Shown here in pieces: positions 870 to 39,678 of a stretch of 39,910 nt of DNA (positions are counted from its first letter, which is position 1; the number at the start of each line of letters is the position of its first letter). The notes beneath the pieces were generated by a model. That model was not told where the DNA came from. It worked only from the letters and a program-made list of their open reading frames with translations, and made no database searches. The stretch lies in assembly GCA_903929485.1 (NCBI GenBank), contig CAIYUY010000095.1, forward strand, positions 1 through 39,910, given 5' to 3'. The position numbers and the translations under genes were made by a program. The stretch is from an uncultured Desulfuromonadales bacterium. Its GTDB lineage: Bacteria > Desulfobacterota > Desulfuromonadia > Geobacterales > CAIOGM01.

Positions 870-3530
870 CTAACCCACCATCACCTTGGTGCTCTCCTCG
901 CCGAATTGACTGATTACCCTTACCGCGATCTTCTGGCCCGACTTCAAAATTTCTATGGGATGAGAGATATGGCCGTAGAGACGGTCAAAGGCTTCATCGT
1001 CAATCTCGATTTTCAGCGTCTTTTCCGCCTTGGCCTTGGTGCGCTGTTTCGCAAAGTCGGAAAGTCCTTTCTGCCATTTCTTGAACTCGTCCTTGTCCCC
1101 ACCGCAGAAAAAGAGCTGCTTGACGATGAAGTTGTTGCCGTCGTAGTCGTCATCAACCATCCAATAGGCGATGTCGTGAATGTCTCGTGGTTTCACGAGA
1201 TCCTTGATGGGGTCGTAGATGTCGAGCCCACGGATTTCCACCCGGACGAATTTCGTGGCGTCTTTCAGAAGCACAACGTCCGGCTCGCCGATGGTGACGA
1301 ATGAGGCCGCCTTTTTATCCTTCTTCAACAGGCCGTTCTGCATCAGGTCGTCGTGCATCCGGACTTTCGTCACTTCGAAACCGCCGAGGCGGGTGGTGAC
1401 GTTTTCGTTGGTGATGTTGCTCTCGAAGGAGAAGCCGAGGATGATCAGCCAGTCGGCGTCGCCACGGGTCCGGCACTCTTTCACCGCTTCATTTACCGCC
1501 TGTTTGCTGACAGTGCCGAATTTGGGGCCGATGTGAAGGTACGCCTTCTTTTCACTCGTGGCGGAAGTGTAGAACCCTTCGGCGTGGAGCCAGGGGCTGT
1601 TCAGTCGCTCTACCCGGATGAAGACCGCATGTTCGTTTTTGTCGCCGTTCTTCACCCCGGCGGATTTCAGATGGTCAAAGATCCGCTCCTCGAATCGCTC
1701 CGCCCCTTCCGCATCCTGAACGTTCAGTGATTCCGGCGATACCGGCTCGAAACTTTGCAAGGTTTCCACCGTGAACGGTCCGGCCACCCGAAGGCGTTTT
1801 TTGTCTTCCTCCGGCTGGTCAAAGAGGGTTTCCGTATCGGCGGGTTCGTCGTTGGCCAGAGATTTCAGGGTGATGTGGGGAACGGTCTTGTAGACAAATC
1901 CGTTACGGATATCGATGTTTTGATTTTGTAGGGGCGCAAGGCTTGCGCCCTTGCCGCCGATGCCGGCATCTTTGCCGGGAACACCAGGGCGAACGCCGTT
2001 CGCCCCTACACTTTTTTCATCGTATAGAACGTAATAGGGGAAGATCGCGGTGAGCATGCGGCTTTTGGCGATGTTCAGAGCGATACGGGAGGTGTCGATG
2101 GTCAACCAGCGGCGGCCCCACTGCTCGGCCACATACGCCGTCGTCCCGCTGCCGCAGGTGGGATCAAGCACCAGATCACCGGGATCGGTGGACATGAGGA
2201 TGCAACGCTGGATCGCTCTTACAGAGGTTTGAACTACATATCGTTGTTCTTCTGTAAAACTTCCAGCCCCAAGTCCAGTCCATGCATTGCTCAAAGGTGC
2301 AACAGGGAAATCTTCTAGATAACGCACAAATCTTAGGCTGTTTGTCGTTGAAACAATTCTATTTAACTCTATCAATCTTTTAATCCCCAGCTGTGTGGTT
2401 TTCCAGTGAGAATTTGAAGGTGGAGAGTAAACCTTTCCCGAGAACTCTACAGCTAATCCTCCTGTATCAGAAGCACCACTTGAAATTAAGCTAGTTGGTT
2501 GATAAAAACGCACATTGTCAGGCAACAAATCTCTATTCTTTTTTTCAGCAGCGGTGAGACTTCTTCGTGTCCCATGTGAATCCTCAATCCATGAATATGA
2601 ATTAGAAATACCAAGATCATCTTTGCTAACATATAGTGGCCTGAACTTCAGCGATTCGATTTGCCTTGCATAATAGAGCGCATAATCACATACGCATGCA
2701 ATTGTACCAGCAGCAAGGCTACCGGTTTTTGTGAACGAAATCATGGAAACAAAGTTCTCACTCCCAAACACCTCATCCATGATGTTCCGTACCAGATGCA
2801 CGTTTTCATCGGATATCTGCACGAAACAGGAACCGCTTTCGGTAAGCATCTCCTTGGCTACCAGGAGCCTATCCCGCAGGTATGACAGGTACGAGTGAAT
2901 CCCCAACTCCCAGGTATCCCGAAACGCCTTGATCTGTTCCGGTTCCCCGGACAGATGCTCATCGTTGCCGTCTTTTACCTCCCGGTCATTCAACTTCATC
3001 TGCCAGTTGCCGCCGTACTTGATGCCGTAGGGCGGGTCAAAGTAGATGGTCTGAACCTTTCCCGCCATCCCTTCCCGCTCCAGGAGTGACGTCATGACCA
3101 GCAGACTATCCCCCTGAATGAGCCGGTTGCTCCAGCCGTCGTGATGATCGTAATAGGTGGCGGGCTTTTCCAGTTCATCCACTTCCAGGGCATTGCCGAA
3201 GAGTTCGTTGGTGTCGAACAGGGACCGTTGCGCGGACTCCTCGGTCTTGGCGGTATAAAGGCGATTGATCAGCATCTCCGGCGAGATATGTTCGTGCCGG
3301 TAAAGAGAACGGATATCCACCTTCAGCTGCTCTTCCCGATCATCGTTACCGTACTTGTTCAACCAGAACAGCTCCGGGTCCTGGCCGCGATGCACCACGG
3401 GATTCACCGGATAGGTCGCCGTCTGCTTTCCCTGGACCGTCGGGTTGCCGTCCTCAAAACCGGCTTCTTCCCGTGACGGGATATGGGCGCGGGTGGCTTT
3501 GGTATGCTTGATGGATTCGATCTCGGACAT
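870..3530 (-). CDS. Type III-like adenine-specific DNA methyltransferase (Mod)
   Basis: This 886-residue protein is a site-specific DNA methyltransferase of the kind paired with a helicase-type restriction subunit. The catalytic motif DPPYG is at residues 165-169, and the AdoMet-binding motif DPTCGSGTT at 456-464 comes after it, which is the beta-class motif order typical of type III Mod enzymes. The stretch between them should hold the target-recognition domain, and its DNA is clearly AT-richer than the flanks. The N-terminus ([18 protein letters not shown]) fits the family. The start ATG has an upstream GAGG. Residues about 508-535 are encoded by a palindromic repeat inserted in frame. The restriction partner upstream (4458-5750) is broken, so this is probably now a solitary methylase. 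Confidence 0.9.
1927..2010. repeat. 84-bp palindromic element inserted in frame in mod
   Basis: The element begins TGTAGGGGCG and ends with the inverse CGCCCCTACA. Inside are two shorter palindromes (GGGCGCAAGGCTTGCGCCC and GGGCGAACGCCGTTCGCCC) around a third GC-rich stem. Its length is 84 bp, exactly 28 codons, and mod reads straight through it, giving a Gly/Pro/Ala-rich stretch at residues 508-535. A shorter relative of this family lies at 28019-28046. Confidence 0.85.
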
Positions 3531-3636
3531 GCCTTACCTCAGTTAATAATTAATAATTGATAATTGACAATGGATAGCTTATGGAAAACTTGGATGTGAA
3601 TTTACTTGACTAAATTTACCGTTCGGATATAGAGTC

Positions 3637-3837
3637 TCACCCAAGACGGGTAAGTCCTATTGCGTGCCTCACGTGTTCCGCCCATTCGGCGCTAAGCGTG
3701 GGGATCATCGGCGCAATAGGGACCGTCTTTTTTTTCGTCCTTTTCCGGATAGTCATACTCACCTGCAATCTTTTCCCTGAATATCCGATACTATTCGCTG
3801 TATCCTGCCTCATACATCTTGAATATATTAGTGTCAC
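3637..3837 (-). CDS. Hypothetical small protein (doubtful)
   Basis: This open frame has up to 66 codons. The first start is GTG, and ATG codons lie at codons 9 and 28. The last ATG follows an AGGTGAGT stretch and would give a 39-residue basic peptide beginning MTIRKRTKKKT. No family is recognised. It sits alone between mod and a repeat cluster, and may be a remnant or noncoding. Confidence 0.2.
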   Translation of the reverse strand: MTLIYSRCMRQDTANSIGYSGKRLQVSMTIRKRTKKKTVPIAPMIPTLSAEWAEHVRHAIGLTRLG

Positions 3838-3871
3838 ATTTTTTTCAACTTAGATCTCATCCTGTATTTTA

Positions 3872-3902
3872 TTTGTCATCCTGAGCGTAGTGAAGGATCT
3901 AT
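3872..3902. repeat. TGTCATCCTGAGC repeat, half unit
   Basis: A single arm of the dispersed TGTCATCCTGAGCG...GAAGGATCT repeat lies next to the stop codon of the GIY-YIG gene. The full palindromic units are on the other side of that gene. Confidence 0.75.
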
Positions 3903-3908
3903 TACAGC

Positions 3909-4190
3909 TTACCACTCCGACGCCAAATCTTCCCATGCCGGATTCGTTGCTTCTATCAACTCGACTTTACGGCTTCTCAGCCAGCCCTTTAGCTGCTTCT
4001 CTCTCGCTATGGCTGCATTTACGTCAGTAGTTTCCTCATGATGAACCAACCGATCTATGTTGTATCTGGCAGTAAAACCTTCCACTGCTTTATTCTTATG
4101 TTCATGGACGCGCCTGGCAAGATCGTTGGTTACACCAATATACAGAGTGCGTGACTTACTGGCCATGATGTAGACGTAATAATTTTTCAT
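3909..4190 (-). CDS. GIY-YIG nuclease superfamily protein
   Basis: This 93-residue protein consists of just a GIY-YIG domain. YVYI at residues 5-8 and LYIG at 16-19 form the signature, followed by the conserved Arg-rich helix (NDLARRVHEHKN) and the late KQLKGW region. Family members of this size are stand-alone single-domain proteins with proposed nuclease activity, and their cellular role is not settled. It is complete. The gene is flanked on both sides by copies of the TGTCATCCTGAGC repeat, so gene and repeats may have arrived or spread together. It lies between res and mod remnants but is not part of that operon in any obvious way. Confidence 0.85.
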   Translation of the reverse strand: MKNYYVYIMASKSRTLYIGVTNDLARRVHEHKNKAVEGFTARYNIDRLVHHEETTDVNAAIAREKQLKGWLRSRKVELIEATNPAWEDLASEW

Positions 4191-4203
4191 CCTGTCTCTT
4201 GAT

Positions 4204-4388
4204 TGTCATCCTGAACGTGTGAAGGATCTGTTGTAGATTTGACTGCCCGAAAAACAGAAGCAGATTCTTCGCTGCGCTCAGAATGACAAACGTTGCTTGT
4301 CATCCTGTTTTTTAGCTTGTCATCCTGAGCGTAGCGAAGGATCTATTGCTGAAACAAAGCAGATTCTTCGCTGCGCTCAGAATGACAA
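4204..4388. repeat. Two palindromic TGTCATCCTGAGC units
   Basis: Unit one is 4204-4289 and unit two 4318-4388. Each starts TTGTCATCCTGA and ends with the inverse CTCAGAATGACAA, with GAAGGATCT and AGATTCTTCGCTGCG inside, so each can fold into a long imperfect hairpin. Both are followed by the same short tag (ACGTTGC). They fill most of the space between the GIY-YIG gene and the res fragment. Confidence 0.85.
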
Positions 4389-4457
4389 ACGTTGCCTGCC
4401 TTCGCTTGCTTCGGTTACCCTCAACACAAGTCGCTCAGAATGACAACAGACACGCCG

Positions 4458-5750
4458 CTACGCCCTCTCTATCACCGCCAGCAGTTCGTTCTTGATGTCC
4501 CGGATATCCCCTTCAATCTCCACAAAACGCCATTCATCATAACCGTACTGCTCCCGCACCCCATTCACCGCCGGTAGCCACCGATTGAGGACATAATCCT
4601 TCTTGATCTCCTTGTCCCTCTTCATCCCGATGATTTCCACGATCAGATTGATCATCGCGCCGCTTTTGGTCCGGCAGCGGGCTATGAAGTCGGGGAAGTA
4701 ATCCCGGTCTTTGCCATCGCCCACATAGGGAATGGTGAACCCAAGGAAAGAGTTCTTCACATATGTCGTCACGTGCTTCAAATCCTCAAGTGATTTGGCG
4801 GCTTTCTGCTCCCAGGTCTCCGTGTCGCCGACAACGTAATTCACATGGCTCTTGCCAGTGGCAAAGAGTTGTTCCTTGGGCCGAGCGGTGGTTCCGTTGA
4901 CGTGCTTGCTGCTGCCGAATCGGTTGTAATAGTTGAAGATCGGCAGAACACGGTCGGTGGCGGCGCCCTGTTTCCGTATTCCTCTCATGATGTGCTGGCA
5001 GATACTGCCGGCGTCCACGAAGATCAGGAGTTTCCTGTATTCCGGATCGGTGATATTCAGCAGCTTGACCTTGTTGTCATACCAGAATTCGACAATAACC
5101 TTGATCCGGGCAAATTTCTGAAACTGGGGATTGCTCTCTTCATCGGAGTAATGGCGGCGTAGCATCTCCTTGGTGATGAAGTAGACGATTTCCTGGTTCC
5201 GCTTTTCCTTCACCGATTCCACGGTCAACTCGTTTTCATCGGCAGAAAAAGCGCTGGCCAAGGTGGTCCGGGTTGGAAAGATTGAACCGTCAAATTCAAA
5301 GTCCGCCACGGTGGAAAAATCGGCCGTGATTGCTCCTTCCACCGGTTCCACCCGGTAGCCGGTCAAGTTGGGAAAGGTAATTTCGTGCTTCTTTAGGCGT
5401 TCGGGCATGGCGAAGATATGAGTGTGCTCGGTCTTCTCCGGCGGTGGCGGCGTCCCCCCCTTGAACAGCTTGAACGGCACTCCGATAATCTGGGCGTATT
5501 CCGGAGGAAACCGGCCATCCTTGCCCAGATCATATTTCTGGCGGCGCAAGGCCCGTCCTGCAACCTGTTCACAGAGCAGTTGTGAATTGAAGGCCCGAAG
5601 TCCCATGATATGCGTCACCGTGTTGGCGTCCCACCCTTCGGTGAGCATGGAAACCGATACCACGCAGCGGATATGGGAACCGAGAAAGCCCTTCTTCCCC
5701 ACGGTATTCACCACCTCCCGCAGGATGTCGGCGTCACTTAGTTGCTCCAC
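4458..5750 (-). pseudogene. Restriction subunit Res, C-terminal fragment
   Basis: Only the last ~430 residues of a helicase-type restriction endonuclease remain, where the whole protein is usually about 900-1000. Helicase motif V (SMLTEGWDANTVTHI) and motif VI (QVAGRALRR) are at the N-terminal end of the fragment. The C-terminal part carries a probable nuclease core (YFPDFIARC...NLIVEIIG). The Walker A and DEAD-box half is absent. The first usable start is a GTG. Family-like sequence appears to continue a few codons further and stops at a MITE-like element at 5789. The family resembles the Res proteins partnered with the Mod type found at 870-3530. Restriction activity should be lost. Confidence 0.85.
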
Positions 5751-7004: not shown

Positions 7005-8333
7005 CTACGGTTTTATGGGCCAACCCGTCTCCAACCCTGCCGGATAAAAATTCTCCTTGGTACGGTTGAAGTAGCCGTACTGGATACGAGGGAAGCTCTT
7101 CTTGACCTTTTCCATCATCCGGTACATCCCCATTCCCTTCCCCGAAAACTCCAGCTGCTTGTGATAATAATCCGGATCTATGGAAAGATTGCGCATCTGG
7201 ATCATGTCGATCCCCGTGACGTCTATGAACTTGAGAAGCGCCTCCACCTCCTCCGGAGCGTCGGAAAGTCCGGGAGATACCAGATAATTGATCATGGTGA
7301 ATTTTCCCCGCTCCTTGGCCGCCTTCACCGATTCCGTCACCTGGGCAAAGGTGTATCCCACGGGACGATAATAACGGTTGTAATACTCCTCCCGCACCGA
7401 ATTGAGGGAAAAACGGAACGAGTCCATCCCCGCATCGCACAACATCCGGACCCGGTCCGGAAAGGAGCCGTTGGAGTTGAAGTTAACCGTCCCCCGCGCC
7501 GTCGCCCCCTTCATGCGGCGAGTCGCTTCGGCAATGGTATCGGCCTGAAGGATCGGGTCACCCTCGCACCCTTGGCCATAAGATACGATAGGCTCCGCGG
7601 CTTCGTTCAGGTGCGGCAGCGCCAGTTGGCAAAGCTCCTCCGGGGTGGGGACGAAACCGATCCGCTCATGGTTTGAAGGACAGCATTCCGACGGCTGCAG
7701 ACTGATACAGCCGAGACAGCGAGAATTACAGACGGGCGACGTGGGGAGCGGCGCCTCCCAACGACGAAAAAAAAGATTCTTGGCGGCGAAACAGTGGTAA
7801 TCCACGGCGCAACGGGCAAGCTGCTCCAGGAGCCGGTTATCCGGTAATTCCGCGAGCATTTTTCGAACCAAGGGATCCAGCTTCCGATCATCGTAATTGC
7901 GGGGGTTCCAATTATCGTTTTTATCCACCAGGCTGGCCGCCACGACAAACCGCTCCTGTTCCATGTCCCACCCCACCGCGGTGTAAGACCAGAGGGGGAG
8001 ATGGACTTTTTTCCGACCGTAATCGCAGGCGGGAAGAAGAGTCCTGACATAGCCGGGGGCCATGAAGGCCGAGACAGCCTGAACCCGCAGTTGCTTGCGG
8101 CCATGGCGCACACTCTCCACGGGGACAAAAGCATTTTTCCGTTCATCCCACGCAAGGGGGGGGGTATGGGGAATGGTGAAGATCCGGCTCCCCTCCGGCA
8201 GGGGAATCAACTCCACCCGCTCCGGAAGCACCGCTTGAGTGCCGCTCATCCCGGCCATGCAGAGATCCGGATGATCGAAGATCGTCCCCCGCTCATCGGC
8301 ATAAAGGAGCCGGGGCAACCGTCGCGCTTTCAT
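7005..8333 (-). CDS. Radical SAM protein downstream of ntrX
   Basis: This 442-residue protein has a radical SAM core. The cluster-binding CxxxCxxC (CNSRCLGC) is at about residues 202-209, preceded by an N-terminal extension of some 200 residues with several further cysteines. The following YGQGCEGDP segment and NSNGSFP fit the SAM-binding strands. The start ATG overlaps the stop codon of the sigma-54-type regulator (ATGA), with AGGAGG upstream, so translation is coupled. Substrate is unknown. It probably modifies a peptide or RNA, but the sequence does not decide this. The conserved position after the NtrYX-like pair suggests a shared pathway. Confidence 0.85.
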   Translation of the reverse strand: MKARRLPRLLYADERGTIFDHPDLCMAGMSGTQAVLPERVELIPLPEGSRIFTIPHTPPLAWDERKNAFVPVESVRHGRKQLRVQAVSAFMAPGYVRTLLPACDYGRKKVHLPLWSYTAVGWDMEQERFVVAASLVDKNDNWNPRNYDDRKLDPLVRKMLAELPDNRLLEQLARCAVDYHCFAAKNLFFRRWEAPLPTSPVCNSRCLGCISLQPSECCPSNHERIGFVPTPEELCQLALPHLNEAAEPIVSYGQGCEGDPILQADTIAEATRRMKGATARGTVNFNSNGSFPDRVRMLCDAGMDSFRFSLNSVREEYYNRYYRPVGYTFAQVTESVKAAKERGKFTMINYLVSPGLSDAPEEVEALLKFIDVTGIDMIQMRNLSIDPDYYHKQLEFSGKGMGMYRMMEKVKKSFPRIQYGYFNRTKENFYPAGLETGWPIKP

Positions 8334-9703
8334 TGATCCTCCTGTGACGCCACTTCTATGCCGTACCCCTTGATCCTCCGGAAGAGAACACTCCTTTCCA
8401 CCTCCAGCAGAACAGCTGCCCGGCTCACATCCCACCCGCACTCTTCCAGCGCCCGGATAAGATACTCTCGCTGAAAGCGCTCCCGCGCCTCCCTCAAGGG
8501 AATCGTCCCCAATGGTGGCGCTTCCTTGGGATCACCCGCCCCTTCACGGAGAAAGAGGGGGAGCTGTTCCACCCCGATAACCCCTCCTGGCGTCATGATC
8601 ACCAGACGCTCCACGATATTCTTCAATTCCCGCACATTACCATGCCACTGGTACCCCTGCAACCGGGCCGTCACCTCCGGGGAGAGCTGCTTGCGCTCCT
8701 TACCCTCTTGGCTGCTATAAAGAGATACAAAGTGCTCCGCCAACAACCCCACATCTTCCGGACGCTCCCGAAGGGGCGGCACGGCAAGAGAAACCACGTT
8801 CAGTGCGGAATAAAGATCATCCAGGAACCGCCCCTCCCGACTCTCAATCTCCAGGGAACGGCTGGCTGTGGCAACCACCCGCAGGTCGGCCTCCAGGCGG
8901 CGCCCACCACCCACCCGCTCAAAACTCTGCTCCCGTAGGAGCCGGATCAGCTTCGCCTGACTCCGAAGAGAGAGAGTCTCGATACGCTCAAGGAGGAGCG
9001 TCCCCCCCCCGGCCAGGTCGACCTTCCCCTTTTTGCGGGCCGTGGCGCCGGGAAAAGCCCCTTTTTCATGGCCGAACAGCTCACTCTCCATGAGTTCGTC
9101 GGGAACACCGGCACAGTTCACCACCACGAACGGGTTGACTCGTCGAGGACTGTTCATGTGGATCAGCCTGGCAGTCAACTCCTTGCCGGCGCCGCTTTCG
9201 CCGTTTATGAGAACCGGGGCGTCGCTGGCGGCAATCAAGAGCAACTCCCGCCAGAGCGACTTCATGGCATGGGAATCCCCCACCAGAACATGGTCCTTTG
9301 CCGCGAGACATTTCAACGCGCGGTTCTCCTCCCGGAGTCGGCTCATGGCCAGGGCGTTGGCGACCGTAACAAGAATCTTCTCCAAGGAAAGCGGTTTCTC
9401 GATAAAATCATAGGCTCCCATCTTGGTGGCCTTCACCGCCGTCTCAATGGTGCCGTGCCCCGACATCATGACTACCGGGAGGTACGGGTAGGATTCCTTC
9501 AACCGTTTCAGGGTATCCATGCCGTCGATCCCCGGCATCCAGATATCCAGAAACACCAGATCCGGCGGCTCTTTCCGGACCATCTCCAGCCCCTCCTCAC
9601 CGGAGGCTGCTCCCACCGTGTCAAACCCCTCATCCTCAAGGATTCCCGCCAGGGAGAAGCGGATATTAGCCTCATCATCGATAATAAGAATAGTCTCTTT
9701 CAT
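8330..9703 (-). CDS. NtrX-like response regulator with degenerate AAA+ domain
   Basis: This 457-residue protein has a receiver domain (about 1-120, phosphoacceptor D53), a sigma-54-activator-type AAA+ domain (about 140-375) and a Fis-type helix-turn-helix (about 410-450). Walker A (GESGAGKE, 168-175) is intact. Other hallmarks are not. The sigma-54 contact loop reads GAFPGA (215-220) instead of GAFTGA. Walker B has ER in place of DE (239-240). The two arginine-finger positions equivalent to PspF R162 and R168 are L294 and A300. It therefore probably cannot activate sigma-54 polymerase by ATP hydrolysis and may act as a phosphorylation-controlled DNA-binding regulator. The kinase gene is 90 bp upstream. 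Confidence 0.9.
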   Translation of the reverse strand: MKETILIIDDEANIRFSLAGILEDEGFDTVGAASGEEGLEMVRKEPPDLVFLDIWMPGIDGMDTLKRLKESYPYLPVVMMSGHGTIETAVKATKMGAYDFIEKPLSLEKILVTVANALAMSRLREENRALKCLAAKDHVLVGDSHAMKSLWRELLLIAASDAPVLINGESGAGKELTARLIHMNSPRRVNPFVVVNCAGVPDELMESELFGHEKGAFPGATARKKGKVDLAGGGTLLLERIETLSLRSQAKLIRLLREQSFERVGGGRRLEADLRVVATASRSLEIESREGRFLDDLYSALNVVSLAVPPLRERPEDVGLLAEHFVSLYSSQEGKERKQLSPEVTARLQGYQWHGNVRELKNIVERLVIMTPGGVIGVEQLPLFLREGAGDPKEAPPLGTIPLREARERFQREYLIRALEECGWDVSRAAVLLEVERSVLFRRIKGYGIEVASQEDQ

Positions 9704-9793: not shown

Positions 9794-12004
9794 TCATCCC
9801 GCCGGAAGTTCTATGATGAAACGGGTTCCGCGGGGATCGTTGTCACGCACCCTGATGAATCCCTGGTGATCGGTGATAATGGTGTTGACTATGGCAAGGC
9901 CGAGACCGGTTCCCGATTCCTTGGTGGAAAAATAAGGTTCGAAAAGACGAGACCTCTCTTCCGGGACGATACCATGGCCGTCATCGGCTACCTCACAGGT
10001 GACCAGCCTTAACTCCGGGTTATAACTGGTGCTAATGTCAATGGTCCCGTTGCCATCCACCGCCGCCACCGCGTTGTCCAGAAGATTTATCAGTACCCGC
10101 TTGATCTGGTCCCGGTCAAGCAGAATCTGCGGTAAAGACGGATCGGGGAGGAAGTTGAGGGCTATTCCCCGGTGGGCCTCCCCGTAAAGGGTACTGGCCT
10201 CCCGGATGATGACGTTAAAATCTTCAGGGAGAGGGCGGGCCGCGGGAAGCCTGGCGAAGTTATTAAATTCGTTCACCAGAGTCTTGAGTTCTTCCACCGA
10301 GCGAACGATGAGAGCCGTACATTCATCGAAGACATCATCCCCTTGAGAGAAACGTTCCAGATAGCGTCGCCGGAGACGCTGGGCCGAAAGCTGAATAGGA
10401 GTCAGGGGGTTTTTAATTTCATGGGCGATACGACGGGCAACCTCCCGCCAAGCCGCCATCCGTTGAGCCCGCATGAGCTGGGTCAGATCATCAAAGACCG
10501 CCACCGTCCCCACCGGTTCCCCACGATCGTTGCGTAGCGCCGTCATGCTGACCTGAAGAGTCACCCGGTTCCGGTTCACCGGAATGGTTACCTGTCGCCG
10601 GAGCGTTTCCCCAGGATTATCTCCCAGTTCATCCAGCATCTTGGCCACCAGATCCAGGTTTTCCGGCCCGGCGACCTGACGGAAATGGCTCCCGATAACC
10701 TGGCCTGACCGTACCCCCAAAAGCGCCTCGGCCGACTTGTTCACCGTAGTCAGTATGCCGTCGCGGGAGAGGGAAACGACTCCAGCCGTAACGCTTTCCA
10801 GGACGATCTCCATGTAACGCCGGCGTTCTTCCAACTCCCGGTTGCTCAAGGTCAGTTCCGCGTTGGTTCGCCGCAGCGTCTGCTGGCTGGCCCGAAGGTC
10901 ATCGGTCATCTTGTTGAAGGATCTGACCAGAAGCCCGATCTCGTCATCACCCTGTTCACCCAGATGCACGTCAAGATCCCCCCCGGCGACCTTGGCGGTT
11001 GCATCCGCCAGTTCCTTGATAGGGGTGGTCAAGCTATTAGCCAGGTAGATCCCCAGCCAGACGGAGAGAAAAAGGATAACCAGGGTAATGAGAACCAACG
11101 TCAGGAAAAATTCGTTCCGGATCGGATTTTTCAAAGAGCTGGCTTGGCGGTAATCATGATAGGCCCGGGAGATGCCGTGCACCTTTCCGGCCAAGGATTC
11201 GGGCACATGGAAGTCAACCGCAACGGCGCCGATGATGATCCCCCCCGAGGATACCGGAACGATTCCCCGCACCAGGTCGGCATTTCCCACCGAATAGAAG
11301 CGGTTAAGCTCCCGACCGGTCATGACCTCCCGCAGCTCGGTGCGAGTGGGAAGAGGAAAGTGAGCAAGCCCAGGGAGTTGTGCCTGTCCATCAGTCAGTA
11401 CTCTGCCATCGGCGGCAAAGAGCTCCACCCGGCTCAGGCCGTATTCCTGCTGAAGCTGTTGCACCAGGGTAATAAGACGAGAGCGCCCTTGGGGAGTAAA
11501 GAGCTGTCGGTCGGCAACCTGAGGACCGATCCGCCGACCGAAATGAAGAGACTTGGCGCCCGCGGTCCGGTAGGTTTCCTGGGCGACCTCCATGGACTGA
11601 GTCAGGGACTTTTCTATCTGGGAATTGAACCAGGTAACGATACTCGTGTTGATGTAACCGGTGGAGACCACGAAAAGGAGAATAGTGGGAGCGAAGGAGA
11701 GGCCGACGAATGCCAGAACCAGTTTGCTCCTGAGTTTGGAGCCGCCGCCGCTCCGACGGGCCATGAGAATCCGGGCAGAGGTGCGGATGACCAGGTAAAC
11801 GATGAGGATGAGAAGTAAGATGATGAGGTTGGTGATACCGAAAATCAGAAAACGGTTTCCCACCGTACTCCCGCTGGTGGCCTCCCTGAGGTAACTCTCC
11901 ACCCGGGCCAGATAGATGATCAGCCCGGTGGCGACGAAAAACACCAGAGACTCTATCCCCCGTTTTCGAAAATTATGCGACTCCCACAGCGTCCTGATCC
12001 GCAC
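9794..12004 (-). CDS. NtrY-like membrane sensor histidine kinase
   Basis: This 736-residue kinase has two to three N-terminal membrane helices (about 18-35, 52-75 and 94-115), an extracytoplasmic sensor region (about 118-298), another helix (300-322), HAMP (about 322-375), PAS (about 398-505), a phosphorylation H-box with H528 (RRIAHEIKNPLTPIQ) and a C-terminal ATPase domain ending with GTGLGLAIV. This is the NtrY layout, and the regulator gene follows directly. It probably phosphorylates D53 of that regulator. The start is GTG with a GGGG tract some 10 bp upstream. The signal sensed is unknown. Confidence 0.9.
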   Translation of the reverse strand: MRIRTLWESHNFRKRGIESLVFFVATGLIIYLARVESYLREATSGSTVGNRFLIFGITNLIILLLILIVYLVIRTSARILMARRSGGGSKLRSKLVLAFVGLSFAPTILLFVVSTGYINTSIVTWFNSQIEKSLTQSMEVAQETYRTAGAKSLHFGRRIGPQVADRQLFTPQGRSRLITLVQQLQQEYGLSRVELFAADGRVLTDGQAQLPGLAHFPLPTRTELREVMTGRELNRFYSVGNADLVRGIVPVSSGGIIIGAVAVDFHVPESLAGKVHGISRAYHDYRQASSLKNPIRNEFFLTLVLITLVILFLSVWLGIYLANSLTTPIKELADATAKVAGGDLDVHLGEQGDDEIGLLVRSFNKMTDDLRASQQTLRRTNAELTLSNRELEERRRYMEIVLESVTAGVVSLSRDGILTTVNKSAEALLGVRSGQVIGSHFRQVAGPENLDLVAKMLDELGDNPGETLRRQVTIPVNRNRVTLQVSMTALRNDRGEPVGTVAVFDDLTQLMRAQRMAAWREVARRIAHEIKNPLTPIQLSAQRLRRRYLERFSQGDDVFDECTALIVRSVEELKTLVNEFNNFARLPAARPLPEDFNVIIREASTLYGEAHRGIALNFLPDPSLPQILLDRDQIKRVLINLLDNAVAAVDGNGTIDISTSYNPELRLVTCEVADDGHGIVPEERSRLFEPYFSTKESGTGLGLAIVNTIITDHQGFIRVRDNDPRGTRFIIELPAG

Positions 12005-12599
12005 CTGTCAACCCCGCTTTTGCCGGCAATTTACATAAACTGTCACTTTAACCAATGCCGGGGAGGAGCAGCGAGACCCGTTTCTCCCTTTGATCAAAAG
12101 AGGCAGAGAGCTCTGCACCACCGGCGCCCAGATAGATAACCGTCACAAGGAACGTCCCCCAGGCTGACCGGCCTGTTTTTAGGGCCGGTCGTGCCGCTTG
12201 TCGGAAATTGTTGTTTGCCGTTTTTCGTTTGTAAAAAAGGGGAATGGAGAGTTGACCCCACAGCCCCTTTTGTTGGCTCTCATTGGTTTGTTCAGGCTTT
12301 CGTTGTTTTGGGAAAATTATAATTTTACACCTGTTCCCTTGTTTCCCCAATAATATACGGATTATTTTTATAAATTAAATTTATAACTTACAAGTTACTC
12401 GCACTACGGAACAATGGATAGTCGACAGTACCATGGGTTCCGCAAGTTTGAGCAAACGCAGGACATGTTTGACGGTCAGGTCAGGTTCCCATTAATAGAG
12501 TAACGTTGACGGATGGGCCTGTTGGAGCGAAGCTTAAGCTGGTGGCGGCAACCGGAGAAAATCCGCCGGTTTACTTTACCCAACGCTGTTTTTGTTGAC
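12005..12599. other. Long spacer without a convincing gene
   Basis: About 600 bp lie between the kinase and a porin remnant. An open frame of 100 codons (12048-12350, minus) has no family resemblance or good start. A GACCGGCC hairpin lies at 12166-12190 without a T-run. Bases 12350-12400 are strongly AT-rich and may hold promoter elements for the kinase operon. Confidence 0.5.
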
Positions 12600-24596: not shown

Positions 24597-25184
24597 TCAG
24601 ATCAGGTCCCGCGCCGCCAGCAGGGTGAGGATGATTCCCGCGCATTTCTCCACGGAGTCAACGGACGTGTCCAGTCGGAGCTCCGGTTCATCCGGAGCTT
24701 CGTAGGGGGAGCTGATCCCGGTGAAATGGGGAATTTCACCCAGGCGCGCCTTGCGATAGAGCCCCTTGGGGTCCCGCCGCTCGCATTCGTCCAGGGGGGT
24801 GGCCACGTGAACCTGGATAAACTCTCCCTCAGGCAGGAGCCGCCGCACCAGTTCCCGATCATCCCGGAAAGGGGAGATGAAGGCGGTGAGGACGATGAGT
24901 CCCGCGTCAGCCATCAGCGCCGCCACCTCCCCCACCCGGCGAATGTTTTCCACCCGGTCCCCTTCAGTAAAACTTAAATCCTTGTTGAGCCCATGACGGA
25001 GGTTGTCTCCATCCAGGAGAGCGGTGTGACGACCCCGGGCGACAAGCCTCCGTTCCAGGCAGTTGGCGATGGTGGATTTGCCGGAGCCGGAGAGTCCGGT
25101 GAGCCAGATAACGCAAGGGCGCTGGGTTTTGAGAGCGGCTCGTTCCTCCCTGCTCACCTCTTGTGCATGTTTGCGGATGGTCAT
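24597..25184 (-). CDS. cysC: Adenylylsulfate kinase
   Basis: This 195-residue APS kinase makes PAPS, the sulfate donor, from APS and ATP. The P-loop is GLSGSGKST (about 30-38). LLDGDNLRHGLNKDLSF is the APS-binding region, and FISPFRDDR and DPKGLYRKARLGEIPHFTG complete the family pattern. The start codon overlaps the stop of the upstream sulfotransferase fusion gene (ATGA), so the two are translationally coupled. No sulfate adenylyltransferase is next to it. The pairing with a PAPS-dependent sulfotransferase indicates PAPS made for sulfation rather than for assimilation. Confidence 0.95.
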   Translation of the reverse strand: MTIRKHAQEVSREERAALKTQRPCVIWLTGLSGSGKSTIANCLERRLVARGRHTALLDGDNLRHGLNKDLSFTEGDRVENIRRVGEVAALMADAGLIVLTAFISPFRDDRELVRRLLPEGEFIQVHVATPLDECERRDPKGLYRKARLGEIPHFTGISSPYEAPDEPELRLDTSVDSVEKCAGIILTLLAARDLI

Positions 25185-27994
25185 GTTGCTTTTGTATGCC
25201 GGTAAAGTTGGGGGGCCACGGCGCCGGCCATGGCGCCTTCATCAAGGGTTCCGCCCAGAAAGGAGTTGATTCGAGCGGCCACGGCGGCCGGATCGCGAAG
25301 GGTATCGCCATGCTCCACGTAGAGCACCGGTATCCGCCGGATGGCCAGGAGTTTTCTGATCTGCTGCATCTGGGTGATGTAGGTATGCTTCAGGAGTGTA
25401 TCGGGGATCCGGGCCCCTTCCTTCCCCTGGGCCGCCAGCATGTCCCGTTGGGATGCCACAACTTCGTTCAGGTCGCGCATCATGAAAATCACCCCATAGC
25501 TGTTGGTCGGGTCGGCGGGGAGATGGGCCAACAGCTGCGCCACGATCTTCACGGACTTCCCGCGAGCCTCGGGGAGCCAGGCCGCGTCCCGACGGAGTCC
25601 CTTGGCCCGGGCGTCCTCGAAATACCCCTTTTCATTGTCGGCGTCGGCGGGGCGGTGATCATCAACCAGCGGCGTGATCCCTCCCGCCTCCAGCATCTGC
25701 ATCATCATTGAGGTTCCCGAGCGGGGGAGGCCGGAGACGATGGTGATGGTCTCCGCCAGGGGGGAGGTTATCTTTTTGGGGAGCTCCGGGTCCTGTTCCA
25801 AGGCGTACCGCTCTGAGGTGATGGCGGTTCGCTTGGCCTGCGGCGCCCGGGGTAACAGTGCGCCGGAGGTGATCTCCTTGATTCGCCGCCGGGCCTCTTC
25901 GGCTTTTTGCTTGTACTCCCCAGCCATGACCGGATCTTTCAGCCGTTTCTCGATGATGAAGGCGATGCGGGTCAGGGCCTGCACCATGTTGGGGTTCTGC
26001 ATGAGCGCCACCTTCAGCGCCTCCACCGCCTGTAACGGCCGACCCAGGCGATGCAACGCCACTCCCAGATAGAAATGGGCGGCGGGATTCAGGTAGGAAA
26101 GAGCGATGGCGTCCAGGGCGCAGGCAAGGGCCGGCTTGTTGCGCAGAAGCCCCAGGTTGCAGCGGCAGAGCCCCAGATGAGGCGCCGCATTCTCGCTATC
26201 GATTTCCAGCGCCCGGGTGAAGCAGGCTTGCGCCTGGCGCCACTGTTTGAGAGAGAGCAGCGCCTCCCCTTTCCGGATCTGCAGCTCCACCCCTTCGCGG
26301 TTGAACTCCTCCGCTTTTTCCAGATGAAGCAGCGCGGCGGCGGCATCCCCTTCCGCCAGGCACTGCCCGGCCAGAAGAAATTCCACCGCCTGGGGGTTGG
26401 TCCCCGTGAGGCTTCCCAGCCGCCGTAGCTCATGCCGCTCCTCATCGGTGAGCTCCTCGGGTTTGCACCCCTTGTGCTCTTCCTCCCACCGTTTCAGCAC
26501 TTCCCCGGCGCGAATTGCGCTTGTCTCGCGGGTGACAAAAAGCCGTTTCAACGCTTCTCCCGCCTGGGCTACCCGCCCCAAAGCCTGGAGAGCCTGGAGC
26601 AGGTGGATGCCGAAGCGGGATTCGTCGGGCCACCGGGCGGTGAGCTTCTCCAGCAGGGGGAGGGCGTCCGGATGCCGGTTGGCGTCCATATAGGCCCGGG
26701 CCAGATTGTAATCCAGCTCGCGGACGGTTTCCTCCAGGGCTTTTTCCAGGTCGTCCGCCGGCTTGTCAATATACCCCAGGGCCACCAGTTGGGCGATAGC
26801 TTCGCGGTTTGCCACCGGGTCAATCCGCAGCTCTTCCGGGTGGGAGCCGTCCTCGCCGGGGAGGTGGTCCCATGACGGGATGGCGGTGATGGGGAGCGGT
26901 TCACTTAAGGCGTTCACCAGAGGGGTCCCGTCCATGTCTTCGCCCACGGGGAGGCCGTAGAGGTGGAGGATGGTGGGGGTGATATCCAGCAGGGAGGCCC
27001 CGTGGATGATCTCGTCTTTCTTGATTCCCGGCCCCTTCATGACCAGAATCCCCTGCTGGCGGTGTTGGACCGCCGGACCGGCCGGTTCCACCGGGATATG
27101 CCGGGGGCGGAGGTGATCCGGATGAAAGCCGTGGTCGGAGATCAGGATGACGGTGGTCTCTTTCCCCGCCAGCTCCAGCAGCACCCCCAGCATCAGGTCA
27201 TGAAACCGGTACCCACCTTCCACTACCCCGTTGAACAGCTGGAAATCCGCCTCGTCCACCCACTCCATGCGGGGGGGATGGTAGTTCATGAAGGCGTGGC
27301 AGAAGTGGTCGATGGCGTCGAAGTAGACCCCCATGAAATCCCACGGTTCCAACTGCATGAGGGCCGTGGCTGCGGCCTGGATGCCGGCGGCGTCGGCGAT
27401 GATCTTGGCCAGGCTCTCCAGTCGGTGATCCTTTTCCTGGTCGATTTTATGGAAATCGGGGACAAAGAGCCCGATGCTCTCGGCGTTCAGTTCCTGGGGG
27501 TGGAGCCGGAGTTTTGCCAGATGTTCGGTCAGATGTTTGGGATGGATCACCCCGTCGGGGAGGGGCCAGGGCTGGTCTAGTGTCGCATTGGCCCGGGTAA
27601 AATGGTTGGAGACCATGACGCCGTTGATCGGCTCGGCGGGATGAGACGGCCACCACCCCACCACATTGGAGCGCATCCCGTGCAGATGGAGCATGTTCCA
27701 GAGCGCCCGGGTGGTCCGGGAGTAGCTGGAGACGGGACGGATACCTCCTCCTTGGGGGTTCGGTTCCGTAAAGCCGTGGATGCCGTGCTTGAACGGCCGC
27801 TTTCCGGTGGCGATGGAGGTCCAGAGCATGGGAGAGATGGCCGGGTAGAGGGTAGCCAGGTTTCCCATCACCCCTTCATTCACCATTTTATTCAGGTTGG
27901 GCATCTTCCCCGCGTCCATGAGGGGGGTGATGATCTTCCAGTCGGCGGCGTCCCAGCCGATGAGGAGAACCTTGGGCTGTTGCGGTTGCGGCAT
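25181..27994 (-). CDS. Phosphodiesterase-TPR-sulfotransferase fusion protein
   Basis: This 937-residue three-part protein starts with an alkaline-phosphatase/type I phosphodiesterase domain (about 1-400). Its metal and nucleophile residues lie in LLIGWDAADW, MLWTSIATGKRP, DAIDHFCH and ISDHGF. A TPR-like helical region follows (about 430-730; LEIDSENAAPHLGL and related). The C-terminal sulfotransferase domain has the PAPS 5'-phosphosulfate loop SGLPRSGTSMMM at 754-765 and a 3'-phosphate segment MMRDLNEVVAS near 838-848. There is no signal peptide, so it should be cytoplasmic. It couples to cysC. I infer a sulfated carbohydrate or lipid product, possibly with removal of a nucleotide or phospho-group; the substrate is unknown. 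Confidence 0.88.
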   Translation of the reverse strand: MPQPQQPKVLLIGWDAADWKIITPLMDAGKMPNLNKMVNEGVMGNLATLYPAISPMLWTSIATGKRPFKHGIHGFTEPNPQGGGIRPVSSYSRTTRALWNMLHLHGMRSNVVGWWPSHPAEPINGVMVSNHFTRANATLDQPWPLPDGVIHPKHLTEHLAKLRLHPQELNAESIGLFVPDFHKIDQEKDHRLESLAKIIADAAGIQAAATALMQLEPWDFMGVYFDAIDHFCHAFMNYHPPRMEWVDEADFQLFNGVVEGGYRFHDLMLGVLLELAGKETTVILISDHGFHPDHLRPRHIPVEPAGPAVQHRQQGILVMKGPGIKKDEIIHGASLLDITPTILHLYGLPVGEDMDGTPLVNALSEPLPITAIPSWDHLPGEDGSHPEELRIDPVANREAIAQLVALGYIDKPADDLEKALEETVRELDYNLARAYMDANRHPDALPLLEKLTARWPDESRFGIHLLQALQALGRVAQAGEALKRLFVTRETSAIRAGEVLKRWEEEHKGCKPEELTDEERHELRRLGSLTGTNPQAVEFLLAGQCLAEGDAAAALLHLEKAEEFNREGVELQIRKGEALLSLKQWRQAQACFTRALEIDSENAAPHLGLCRCNLGLLRNKPALACALDAIALSYLNPAAHFYLGVALHRLGRPLQAVEALKVALMQNPNMVQALTRIAFIIEKRLKDPVMAGEYKQKAEEARRRIKEITSGALLPRAPQAKRTAITSERYALEQDPELPKKITSPLAETITIVSGLPRSGTSMMMQMLEAGGITPLVDDHRPADADNEKGYFEDARAKGLRRDAAWLPEARGKSVKIVAQLLAHLPADPTNSYGVIFMMRDLNEVVASQRDMLAAQGKEGARIPDTLLKHTYITQMQQIRKLLAIRRIPVLYVEHGDTLRDPAAVAARINSFLGGTLDEGAMAGAVAPQLYRHTKAT

Positions 27995-28018: not shown

Positions 28019-28046
28019 GTAGAGGCACGGCGCGCCGTGCCCCTAC
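28019..28046. repeat. Short palindrome at PEP-CTERM stop codon
   Basis: GTAGAGGCACGGC and its inverse GCCGTGCCCCTAC face each other with one mismatch. The right end supplies the TAG stop of the PEP-CTERM gene. It belongs to the same GTAGGGGC family as the insertion inside mod. Confidence 0.75.
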
Positions 28047-28681
28047 GCCTCTTTTTCCTTTTGCCGTTTGCGGAAGAGCACCAATCCTCCGGCCCCCATG
28101 GCGATGAGCGCCAGGGAGGTCGGTTCGGGGACGGCCGAGACGCCGACGGTGTCGCCAGCCAGAATGGGAGTGTTGGGGATGTCTTCGTAGCCCCAGTCCT
28201 TGACAATATAAGAAAAATCGGCGGAAGTGTTGATGTAATTTGCAATCTCAATCCAGCCGAATTTTAAACCGGTTCCGGACCCTATGGTGAAACCAATATA
28301 ACCGTTTTTATTTATGCGGACAGAGCTGGAGCTGAAAGTATTTGGACCAATTGGTGCGCTTTTGTTGAAAAGGCCGGACCGCATTTTGGCTAAACCACCA
28401 ACTTTGGCATTTGCGTATGTGTTGGCTATATAGAGTGTCTTTAAGGGCCCAGATCCGGTGCTACTCCATTTTGCACTATTTATAAAACTGAATACATTGC
28501 CATTTATTGATGTTTTTTCTGTTTGCCCTAACGGTACGCTCAGGTTCAAATGGTTGTTGCCGATGTGGGTGGTGATAACCGAGGCCTCCGCCGGTCCCGC
28601 CGCTGCCAGAACCGCGCCCGCCGTCGCCATATAGGCTAACAGTCGCCTATCATCCACTTTAAACTTTTTTAATGCTTCCAT
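28043..28681 (-). CDS. PEP-CTERM sorting-signal protein
   Basis: This 212-residue exported protein has an N-terminal signal region (about 14-34, ending AEASVI), a beta-rich body with Gly/Ser/Asn-rich segments, and a C-terminal PEP-CTERM tail: VPEPTS, a hydrophobic helix (LALIAMGAGGLVLF) and a basic end (RKRQKEKEA). Such tails are processed by exosortase and connect the protein with exopolysaccharide export. No exosortase gene is in the window. AGGAGC precedes the ATG. The upstream region has a sigma-54-like promoter and tandem 16-mers. The next gene downstream is the sulfotransferase fusion. Confidence 0.92.
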   Translation of the reverse strand: MEALKKFKVDDRRLLAYMATAGAVLAAAGPAEASVITTHIGNNHLNLSVPLGQTEKTSINGNVFSFINSAKWSSTGSGPLKTLYIANTYANAKVGGLAKMRSGLFNKSAPIGPNTFSSSSVRINKNGYIGFTIGSGTGLKFGWIEIANYINTSADFSYIVKDWGYEDIPNTPILAGDTVGVSAVPEPTSLALIAMGAGGLVLFRKRQKEKEA

Positions 28682-35729: not shown

Positions 35730-37028
35730 ATGAGACGACGTGATTTTCTGATGGGCGCCGGTGCGTTGGCCCTGACCGCGGCCGGCGGTCCGTTGCTGTG
35801 CCGCCGTGGGAGAGCCTTTGCCGACGGGAGCCCCCTGGACGGGTTACTCCCCTTTAACGATTATGATACCCTGGAGAACATCCGGGCCACCATCAAACAT
35901 AACGGCTTCCGCTTCCAGGTGGGCCACAACTGGGCCTATGACGAGTATGGGTACGCCGCCACCCAGGCCGACGTAAGACCTTGCGATGTTACCCGGATCG
36001 TCATCCCGCCGGCGCCGGCGCCCCCTGATCCGGAATTGCCGGCCAAGTTCGACCTGCGCGACATCAACGGCCGCAGCTACATCGGCCCGATCCGCGATCA
36101 GGCGGAGACCGTGCTTTGTCAGTCTTTTGCCGTCGCCGCCGCCGCCGAGGCCTCGTACAACCGTCGGAACGGCCTTTATGATGACAACTGCATTTCCCTT
36201 TCCCCCATGTACTTGGGTAGCATCTATGACAATGGGTTCTCCGGTAGGACCAGATCAGGGGAGCCATGGGGGAATCCCACCGGCTTGGAGGGGCTCTGCC
36301 GGGAAGAAGATTTCCCCTTCATACCGTACATGTTGGGGGCCGGCGTCACACCGCCGGCCATCCTGGTAGAAGCCGCCAAGTCGGCCCCCCGGATTACCTT
36401 CCGGCGCTACGGTTTGGTCTACCCCTACAACTACTGGGAGACCGTCAACCGGATCAAACGGGCCATCTACCGCTATGGCGCCGTCGCAGGGAACATCCTG
36501 AATTGCAGCGCCTTTCGCGCCTACAAATCAGGAGTATATGAAGATACCCGGATTTATCCGAATAAGCTGCCGTACCCCGTCAGCGCAACTAACCACGCTA
36601 TCGCCTTGGTCGGATGGGACGACAACCCGCCGGAAGGGGGGAACGGCTGCTGGATCCTGCGTAACTCCTGGGGAGAGTCTTGGGGGGAGAGAGGGTACAT
36701 GCGCATTCGCTATTTTTCCGCCGGTGTCAATTACCGCAATGAATACCTGGAAGCCGAATCCGCCGATGACGGAAACCTGAAGATTTATGGCCAGGTTTCG
36801 GTGGATGGCGCTGCCGGATCCTGGATCTCGGTGCTGTTATCGGGAGATGACAGCTTTGAATCCATCGCCACGGGTGGCTGGCATGGCTTTTCGGCGCTCA
36901 AGGCGGGGCATTACCGGGTGACGCCTGACCAGCCGGGGGTGCTCTTCACCCCGCCGTATCAGGAGGTGAATCTTACCACCGGGTATGCAGTAGTAAATTT
37001 TGCGGGAAAGTCGGCGTTTGCCGGCTGA
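35730..37028 (+). CDS. Tat-exported papain-family (C1) cysteine protease
   Basis: This 432-residue protein begins with a twin-arginine-type signal (MRRRDFLMGAGALALTAAGG). The papain domain has Gln124 (oxyanion), Cys130, His289 (SATNHAIALVGWDD) and Asn312 (ILRNSWGESWGERGYMRIRY). In most family members Cys is followed by Trp; here it is Gln (VLCQSFAVA). The Cys normally found upstream of the nucleophile (QGSCGSCW) is replaced too. A C-terminal beta domain of about 90 residues follows. GGGGAGGAG precedes the ATG. It is probably cotranscribed with the DUF1566 lipoprotein and could process it or other surface proteins. Confidence 0.88.
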   Translation: MRRRDFLMGAGALALTAAGGPLLCRRGRAFADGSPLDGLLPFNDYDTLENIRATIKHNGFRFQVGHNWAYDEYGYAATQADVRPCDVTRIVIPPAPAPPDPELPAKFDLRDINGRSYIGPIRDQAETVLCQSFAVAAAAEASYNRRNGLYDDNCISLSPMYLGSIYDNGFSGRTRSGEPWGNPTGLEGLCREEDFPFIPYMLGAGVTPPAILVEAAKSAPRITFRRYGLVYPYNYWETVNRIKRAIYRYGAVAGNILNCSAFRAYKSGVYEDTRIYPNKLPYPVSATNHAIALVGWDDNPPEGGNGCWILRNSWGESWGERGYMRIRYFSAGVNYRNEYLEAESADDGNLKIYGQVSVDGAAGSWISVLLSGDDSFESIATGGWHGFSALKAGHYRVTPDQPGVLFTPPYQEVNLTTGYAVVNFAGKSAFAG

Positions 37029-39063: not shown

Positions 39064-39678
39064 TCAGGCACCTCGGCCCGATCTTCTGATGTATGCCAAT
39101 CCTCCAAGGCCGGCGCAAAGGAGCAGGGCGGTGCTTGGTTCGGGAACCGTGAATGTAGAGCCGTATGCCGATATCTCGGTAAGCCCCACCCAATCGCCGG
39201 CGCTGACAACTTCATACTTTAAATACTGAGCAGTCGCGCCATTGGTTGTGATGTTTTCGGAATGAATATCGGACAAGTTCCCTGACGCAATGAACTTCCA
39301 GTTGGTATTGTTGTTCCAGGGGTCATTCCAGGCGTCATCGTTTGTGCCGGCATAAAGGTTGAACGTCACCCCGCCGCTTTGAGCCGGATAAAAGAGGTCG
39401 ACATGAGATAACGAATAGAGCCGCCCGAGGTCCACCTCCAGCCAGTGTTGCGACCAGTCTCCCGCATTCCAAAAATTATCCGTGCCATCCGTTGCATGGG
39501 AAGCAACCCATCCATTCCATTCAGCATCGGCCTTGGCGGTTTTTCCCAGGGCCACATTGCCGGGCGCCAGCGTAAGCGCCTGAGCAGGGAGCACCAAGAG
39601 CAGAAAAATTCCCAGGAGCATGAGCGCCGCAATGAGTGGTTTTTTAACGAACGTTGGTTTTTGGGTTACATCTCGCAT
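39064..39678 (-). CDS. PEP-CTERM protein with discoidin-like domain
   Basis: This 204-residue exported protein has a signal peptide (about 13-35, PLIAALMLLGIFLLLVLPAQA) and an F5/8-type (discoidin-like) domain (NVALGKTAKADAEWNG...HATDGT... HWLEVDLGRLYSLSHVDL) that often binds carbohydrates. It ends in a PEP-CTERM tail (VPEPSTALLLCAGLGGLAYIRRSGRGA). AGGAGA lies 8 bp before the ATG. It would be sorted by the same exosortase as the protein at 28043-28681. Unlike that gene, no sigma-54-like site is obvious upstream. Confidence 0.9.
   Translation of the reverse strand: MRDVTQKPTFVKKPLIAALMLLGIFLLLVLPAQALTLAPGNVALGKTAKADAEWNGWVASHATDGTDNFWNAGDWSQHWLEVDLGRLYSLSHVDLFYPAQSGGVTFNLYAGTNDDAWNDPWNNNTNWKFIASGNLSDIHSENITTNGATAQYLKYEVVSAGDWVGLTEISAYGSTFTVPEPSTALLLCAGLGGLAYIRRSGRGA

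Follow-up and report, generated by a model that had tools for sequence, protein, structure and literature searches.

Does a regulator that keeps the full architecture of a sigma-54 activator, while several of its key residues are changed together, still work as one? This question is raised by an NtrX-like gene on the minus strand of the window, by which we mean the whole 39,910-nucleotide stretch of DNA analyzed here. The AAA+ domain is the usual means of recognizing sigma-54 activators, and every such protein is annotated as sigma-54 dependent. The initial annotation of this locus had instead proposed that the protein is unable to act as a sigma-54 activator and has moved to sigma-54-independent control while keeping control by phosphorylation.

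Domain architecture and altered residues of the window NtrX

NtrX was the top NCBIfam model for the 457-aa protein (447.7 bits, under the 600-bit equivalog cut-off), and matches to Response_reg (residues 5-113), Sigma54_activat (140-306), the AAA lid (312-392) and HTH_8 (407-447) gave the receiver-AAA+-Fis layout of sigma-54 enhancer-binding proteins. The protein is an NtrX orthologue paired with NtrY: the kinase gene, a single-copy orthologue throughout the order, adjoins ntrX in three genomes of the window genus, and in the fourth both genes lie at facing contig ends, where we take them to be adjacent. The features of the locus are collected in Table 1.

Table 1. Features of the ntrYX locus in the window
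Feature	Position	Strand	Basis
Radical SAM gene; start overlaps ntrX stop (ATGA)	7005..8333	-	Adjoins ntrX in 4/4 genus genomes
ntrX-like response regulator, 457 aa, degenerate sigma-54 activator	8330..9703	-	ORF and domain matches
Fis-type HTH (residues 407-447), recognition helix ERSVLFRRIK	8363..8485	-	Domain match, helix comparison
Arginine finger 2 position 300, Ala (GCA)	8804..8806	-	Codon reading, structure-sequence alignment
Arginine finger 1 position 294, Leu (CTG)	8822..8824	-	Codon reading, structure-sequence alignment
Sensor I region (279-282), Ser281 (AGC) where relatives have Asn	8858..8869	-	Codon reading, alignment
Walker B TLLLERI (235-241), DE changed to ER; 239-240 are GAG CGT	8981..9001	-	Codon reading, genus alignment
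L1 loop GAFPGA (215-220), not GAFTGA; Pro218 is CCC	9044..9061	-	Codon reading, genus alignment
Walker A GESGAGKE (168-175), retained; Lys174 is AAG	9179..9202	-	Codon reading, clade comparison
AAA+ core (140-306), fold predicted intact	8786..9286	-	Domain match, structure model
Receiver domain (5-113); D10, D53, S81, K103 intact	9365..9691	-	Domain match, codon reading
ntrY-like histidine kinase, HAMP-PAS-HisKA-HATPase	9794..12004	-	Domain matches; single-copy orthologue throughout order
Candidate ntrY promoter, sigma-70-like, conserved CATTGG-C/T-TARAGTG block (CATTGGCTARAGTG)	12040..12075	-	Four-sequence footprint, absent from consensus-scan list

Alignment to Aquifex aeolicus NtrC1 (1ny5) and NtrC4 (3dzd) placed the changed sites in GAFTGA, in LDE and in the F-R-E-D-L-Y-Y-R-L segment of the fingers, and this alignment, together with the minus-strand codons, bore out the substitutions originally described (GAFPGA, Walker B ER, Leu294 and Ala300). 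The receiver Asp, likewise described as intact, is indeed present as D53, and D9/D10, D53, S/T81 and K103, i.e., the residues of a phosphorylatable receiver, occur in every aligned row; receivers of the window genus share a mean identity of 91%. The statement that the DNA-binding domain is intact stood only in part, in that the domain remains, yet the window genus has changes at 9 of 27 canonical-invariant positions, the recognition helix included, where the canonical ERSNLHRKIK has become ERS[VGL]LF[RK]RIK. Elsewhere in the window genome PF00158 matched at 20 places, 19 of which are full-length AAA+ domains, all with DE and both fingers; the nearest paralogue is 43% identical to the window NtrX. 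A comparison of predicted structures had also been proposed, and we found that the AlphaFold2 model (38 orthologues in the input; mean pLDDT 88, AAA+ core >90) predicts an intact AAA+ fold, with a core matching the FleQ and FlrC AAA+ domains (rmsd 1.5-1.7 A, TM 0.93-0.95).

Three further genomes of the window genus carry ntrX at 74-81% identity with intact frames, and alignment of these orthologues beside the radical SAM gene revealed the same residue losses in all four genomes. More specifically, the loop is GAFPGA throughout, the Walker B pair reads ER, DR, DR and HR in the four species, and the finger positions hold L294 and A/L300, with the Walker A lysine and glycines kept. Because four species at this level of divergence share the losses, the altered codons do not reflect a sequencing error, against which the initial annotation had cautioned. 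Whole-gene dN/dS between genus members is ~0.14-0.20, i.e., well below 1, which together with the intact frames rules out a pseudogene. The AAA+ core is relaxed yet still under purifying selection (core dN/dS ~0.11-0.22; median ratio of core dN to whole-gene dS 0.19 in the window genus versus 0.04-0.08 in canonical genera).

Recurrent loss across Geobacterales

The original proposal proved too narrow in scope, since similar losses recur in other clades. Among 118 full-length NtrX orthologues from the order Geobacterales, 65 were canonical (Thr218, Asp-Glu and both Arg), 39 had lost Thr218, Arg294 and Arg300 together, and 14 showed partial losses. On a tree built from receiver, lid and DNA-binding columns, with AAA+ columns excluded, the degenerate clades (f1-g1, which is the window genus; f2-g2/g5/g6; f4-g27; f4-g29; f4-g26; one g21 genome; and 25 g23 genomes) were interleaved with canonical ones. 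The outgroups were canonical, as were the sisters of the 25-genome degenerate part of g23. Parsimony gave 6 changes at Arg294, 8 at Arg300, 8 at Asn281 and 12 at Thr218, the position of f1 on this tree being ambiguous. The losses of the GAFTGA Thr and of the fingers thus fall in about seven separate clades (six to eight, because g27 and g29 could represent one event).

We compared 113 AAA+ and lid positions that are invariant in canonical proteins. Thr218, Asn281 and Arg300 were lost in 7 of 7 degenerate clades; six of these had also lost Lys282, and five Arg294. For Asn281, which had played no part in defining the degenerate clades, loss in all seven had a simulated P of 0.0002 when losses were spread at random. 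Conversely, the P-loop glycines G168, G171 and G173, Lys174 (kept in 125/126 aligned rows), Arg312 and Arg358 showed majority loss in none of the seven. This is the pattern expected if sigma-54 contact and trans-activated hydrolysis had been dropped and nucleotide binding, presumably, kept. A sign test for correlated loss on independent pairs did not reach significance, the pairs being too few. Because the Walker B Glu was lost in the window genus alone among the seven clades, this genus is the most complete case of degeneration; the other six clades keep that residue, and some ATPase activity may therefore remain in them. In canonical groups the ratio of AAA+ core to receiver divergence was 0.69-0.92; in degenerate groups it reached 1.6-2.9. 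Loss of rpoN as the cause of degeneration was ruled out, as rpoN was found in 103/103 near-complete genomes, and ntrY is retained alongside degenerate NtrX.

In two other orthologues from metagenome-assembled genomes (L106 and L107), GAFTGA is intact, Walker B reads NG instead of DE and finger 2 is lost, a residue set that looks like another route of degeneration. Distant NtrX relatives from Thermodesulfobacteriota and unplaced delta genomes (L145, L146 and L150) have NAFPGA or GVFTEE loops with intact fingers.

Candidate operators and promoters at lpxC1, ntrY and ntrX

Genomes of Geobacteraceae (f3) and of f2-g4 carry, upstream of ntrY, an lpxC of a second type (lpxC1, ~310 aa), directly adjoining ntrY in most genomes examined and ~2.5-11 kb away in G018, G022 and G050. 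All 30 lpxC1 starts examined (loci include L252-L281) carry a -24/-12 motif like TGGCN[CT]N5TTGCT at -49 to -74. The best sigma-54 score within 120 bp was 9.7-16.1 (median 12.5), 1.1% of shuffled sequences reached 9.7, and ordinary lpxC promoters in 20 genomes scored ≤8.3. One to three dyads, GTGTTGC-N6-GCAACAC, precede this motif, typically by 80-170 bp, a placement that corresponds to the layout of sigma-54 enhancers. These promoter regions strongly suggest that canonical Geobacteraceae NtrX uses TGTTGC-N6-GCAACA enhancers to drive an lpxC-ntrY operon with a sigma-54 promoter. NtrX was canonical in all 37 lpxC1 genomes in which it was read and in 28 of the 81 genomes without lpxC1, an association that was weak after kinship correction (P ~0.07-0.2). 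Given those 28 genomes, lpxC1 does not by itself explain why sigma-54 function is kept, and the absence of lpxC1 was rejected as the full cause of NtrX degeneration. An apparent tie in f4 between upstream ubiB and canonical NtrX was also ruled out, as f2 degenerate genomes keep ubiB-ntrY. In canonical f4 genomes, a search for a sigma-54 promoter near ntrYX returned none that was convincing.

Earlier studies touch on these genes. Predicted sigma-54 promoters at ntrY-ntrX genes of other phyla have been mentioned in general terms (PMC12316311), and lpxC is a target of the Desulfovibrio vulgaris sigma-54 response regulator DVU2934 (PMC3333781). In Rhodobacter sphaeroides, NtrYX affects the cell envelope and an ntrYX mutant shows changes in lpxC transcript that were judged indirect (PMC7240162); in relatives of the window genome, by comparison, lpxC1 and ntrY form a single operon that a sigma-54 motif precedes.

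Similar dyads recur at other loci. In f2 and some f3 genomes, dyads with a ATGCTACA half and one or two mismatches lie upstream of the aminotransferase-ntrX operon, ~20-40 bp from its start codon, and in f4 the dyad TGATGCAAAAATGCAACA lies upstream of ntrY or of phasin-ubiB-ntrY. Genomes with these f2/f3 and f4 loci include both canonical and degenerate NtrX. In 21 of 22 aligned f4 cases, TATGNTANNNT, an extended -10-like element, follows the dyad by 28-29 bp, and the same element was recognized by eye in the 22nd case (scored 19). These alignments strongly suggest that the f4 dyad precedes a sigma-70-like ntrY promoter whether NtrX is canonical or degenerate. From the location of the dyads at ntrY- and ntrX-linked promoters, we infer that they are bound by NtrX. 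An exact dyad search of whole genomes gave too few matches for a regulon, and reversed-pattern controls equalled it in several genomes.

ERSNLHRKIK is the usual recognition helix in canonical proteins and most degenerate clades; it is altered in the window genus and in g27, and no dyad near ntrY was found in either. The window NtrX has probably changed its DNA specificity, a further respect in which the original proposal was too narrow. Upstream of ntrY in the window genus, a sigma-54 search over 400 bp returned a best score of 10.0 and no strong site; the candidate promoter in this region is sigma-70-like.

Mechanism, competing readings and known systems

We put at roughly 0.7 the probability that the window protein is the NtrY-partnered Geobacterales NtrX orthologue, stripped of its sigma-54-remodelling machinery and still a regulated DNA-binding regulator. 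In this mechanism, NtrY would phosphorylate D53, and the receiver and AAA+ body would control the oligomeric state; the AAA+ domain would probably bind nucleotide through its intact P-loop without ring hydrolysis, and the Fis domain would activate or repress sigma-70 promoters by binding their operators, first at its own ntrYX operon. We infer the loss of ATPase activity in the window NtrX, and likewise which targets it has in the window genus and in which direction it regulates them. Most likely, then, the protein is a phosphorylation-controlled, nucleotide-binding, non-remodelling sigma-70 regulator with changed DNA specificity. The two parts of the original proposal are both supported by our comparisons: the residue classes for sigma-54 contact and for hydrolysis in trans are gone in four species, and the receiver and fold stay constrained.

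That the window NtrX still activates sigma-54, with GAFPGA contacting sigma-54 and other side chains replacing the fingers and the Walker B Glu, appears highly improbable. Some activators tolerate variants of the GAFTGA loop, and D. vulgaris DVU2960 likewise has GAFPGA, but the same Thr-to-Pro change in the loop inactivated Bradyrhizobium japonicum NifA (PMC4641369). Moreover, all four species combine the altered fingers with changes at the sensor-I Asn and the Walker B Glu, and the region upstream of ntrY offers no strong sigma-54 site. It is just as hard to credit that the AAA+ domain, or the entire gene, is decaying without function: frames intact at 74-81% identity in four species, core dN/dS of ~0.11-0.22, a conserved receiver and P-loop, and an operon kept with ntrY and the radical SAM gene all oppose this, even though the AAA+ core evolves 2-3 times faster than canonical groups predict.

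The protein might instead be a mixed-ring subunit that modulates a canonical activator at sigma-54 promoters, for which the genome provides rpoN and the 19 other full-length activator AAA+ domains, and the window protein an AAA+ fold predicted to be intact. We regard this as improbable, given that the nearest paralogue is only 43% identical, that no link to any other activator was found, and that a fingerless subunit would poison adjacent sites. An unlikely arrangement is a pure sigma-70 repressor, in which the AAA+ domain is merely a dimer scaffold with no nucleotide role; the dyad close to the ntrX-operon start codon in f2 and some f3 genomes could indeed block RNA polymerase, but nucleotide binding is favored by the retention of Lys174 in nearly all rows and by the majority retention of the P-loop glycines in every degenerate clade.

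For the order as a whole, we tentatively entertain, at somewhat less than even odds, a history in which the ancestral Geobacterales NtrX was dual-mode: it would have driven a sigma-54 lpxC-ntrY operon from remote enhancers and used the same dyad to control its own operon at sigma-70 promoters. Repeated parallel losses of the GAFTGA Thr, the sensor-I Asn and an arginine finger would then have occurred in lineages that lacked the sigma-54 target and produced a regulator that binds ATP but does no remodelling, with the window genus having gone furthest, through changes in Walker B and DNA specificity as well.

Activator-like proteins that work independently of sigma-54 are already known. Brucella abortus NtrX (5m7n/5m7o/5m7p), the closest solved structure by fold and sequence, shares with the window NtrX the NtrYX pair, the receiver-AAA+-Fis layout and the absence of GAFTGA. 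In the Brucella protein the loop is deleted and LDE and both fingers are kept (5m7n), whereas in the window NtrX the loop is kept with Thr changed to Pro and the catalytic residues are lost, which bears out the earlier suggestion that the loss here is more complete than in alphaproteobacterial NtrX. Phospho-controlled NtrC proteins of R. capsulatus and Caulobacter, which lack GAFTGA and use the housekeeping polymerase, parallel the mode proposed for the window NtrX, and the former requires ATP binding, not hydrolysis (PMC10274813). Both differ in having loop deletions and belonging to another orthologous group, and Caulobacter NtrC still requires Walker A and B residues. Vibrio cholerae VpsR, which is not known to have an NtrY partner, resembles the window NtrX in being activator-like without GAFTGA (structural match rank 19). 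It works at sigma-70 promoters with no need for ATP (PMC10274813), and differs from the window NtrX, to which it is 29% identical, in working with c-di-GMP (7v2b title; references in PMC10274813).

A partial literature search returned no report of recurrent loss in Geobacterales NtrX, of arginine-finger loss in NtrX, or of a sigma-54 lpxC-ntrY operon. With about seven parallel losses in one order, canonical sisters and conserved operators, the shift from activator to ordinary regulator becomes testable, including the order of residue loss and the role of the leftover P-loop. The losses suggest that NtrX often changes its working mode but retains its sensor and the bulk of its structure, and the second lpxC behind a sigma-54 promoter offers a hypothesis for the Geobacteraceae NtrX regulon.

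As for the other neighbor of ntrX, gene order in the window genus is ntrY-ntrX-radical SAM. The radical SAM protein has one match in nearly every genome of the order, mostly at 71-82% identity, and its gene has different neighbors in all 16 other-family genomes with flanks examined; elsewhere it lies far from ntrX, except in the f4 genome G102 (~2.5 kb). An ancestral partnership with NtrX was therefore ruled out, and the linkage is a feature of the window genus. Downstream on the same strand (870-5750), a DNA methylase (PF01555) precedes a helicase-like C-terminal ORF of 430 aa that has no match in Pfam; together these may be a type III restriction system whose restriction subunit is truncated. 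Near the contig end (149-577) RTRSTRHLAIAIISKIASNVPLLP occurs twice in one frame as an internal repeat. The window further encodes a 937-aa protein in which phosphodiesterase, TPR and (weakly matched) sulfotransferase-like domains are fused (25181-27994, minus strand), a cysteine protease of the papain family (C1) whose N-terminus is twin-arginine-like (35730-37028, plus strand), and two small secreted-type proteins with PEP-CTERM-like C-termini (28043-28681, VPEPTS..., and 39064-39678, VPEPST..., minus strand).
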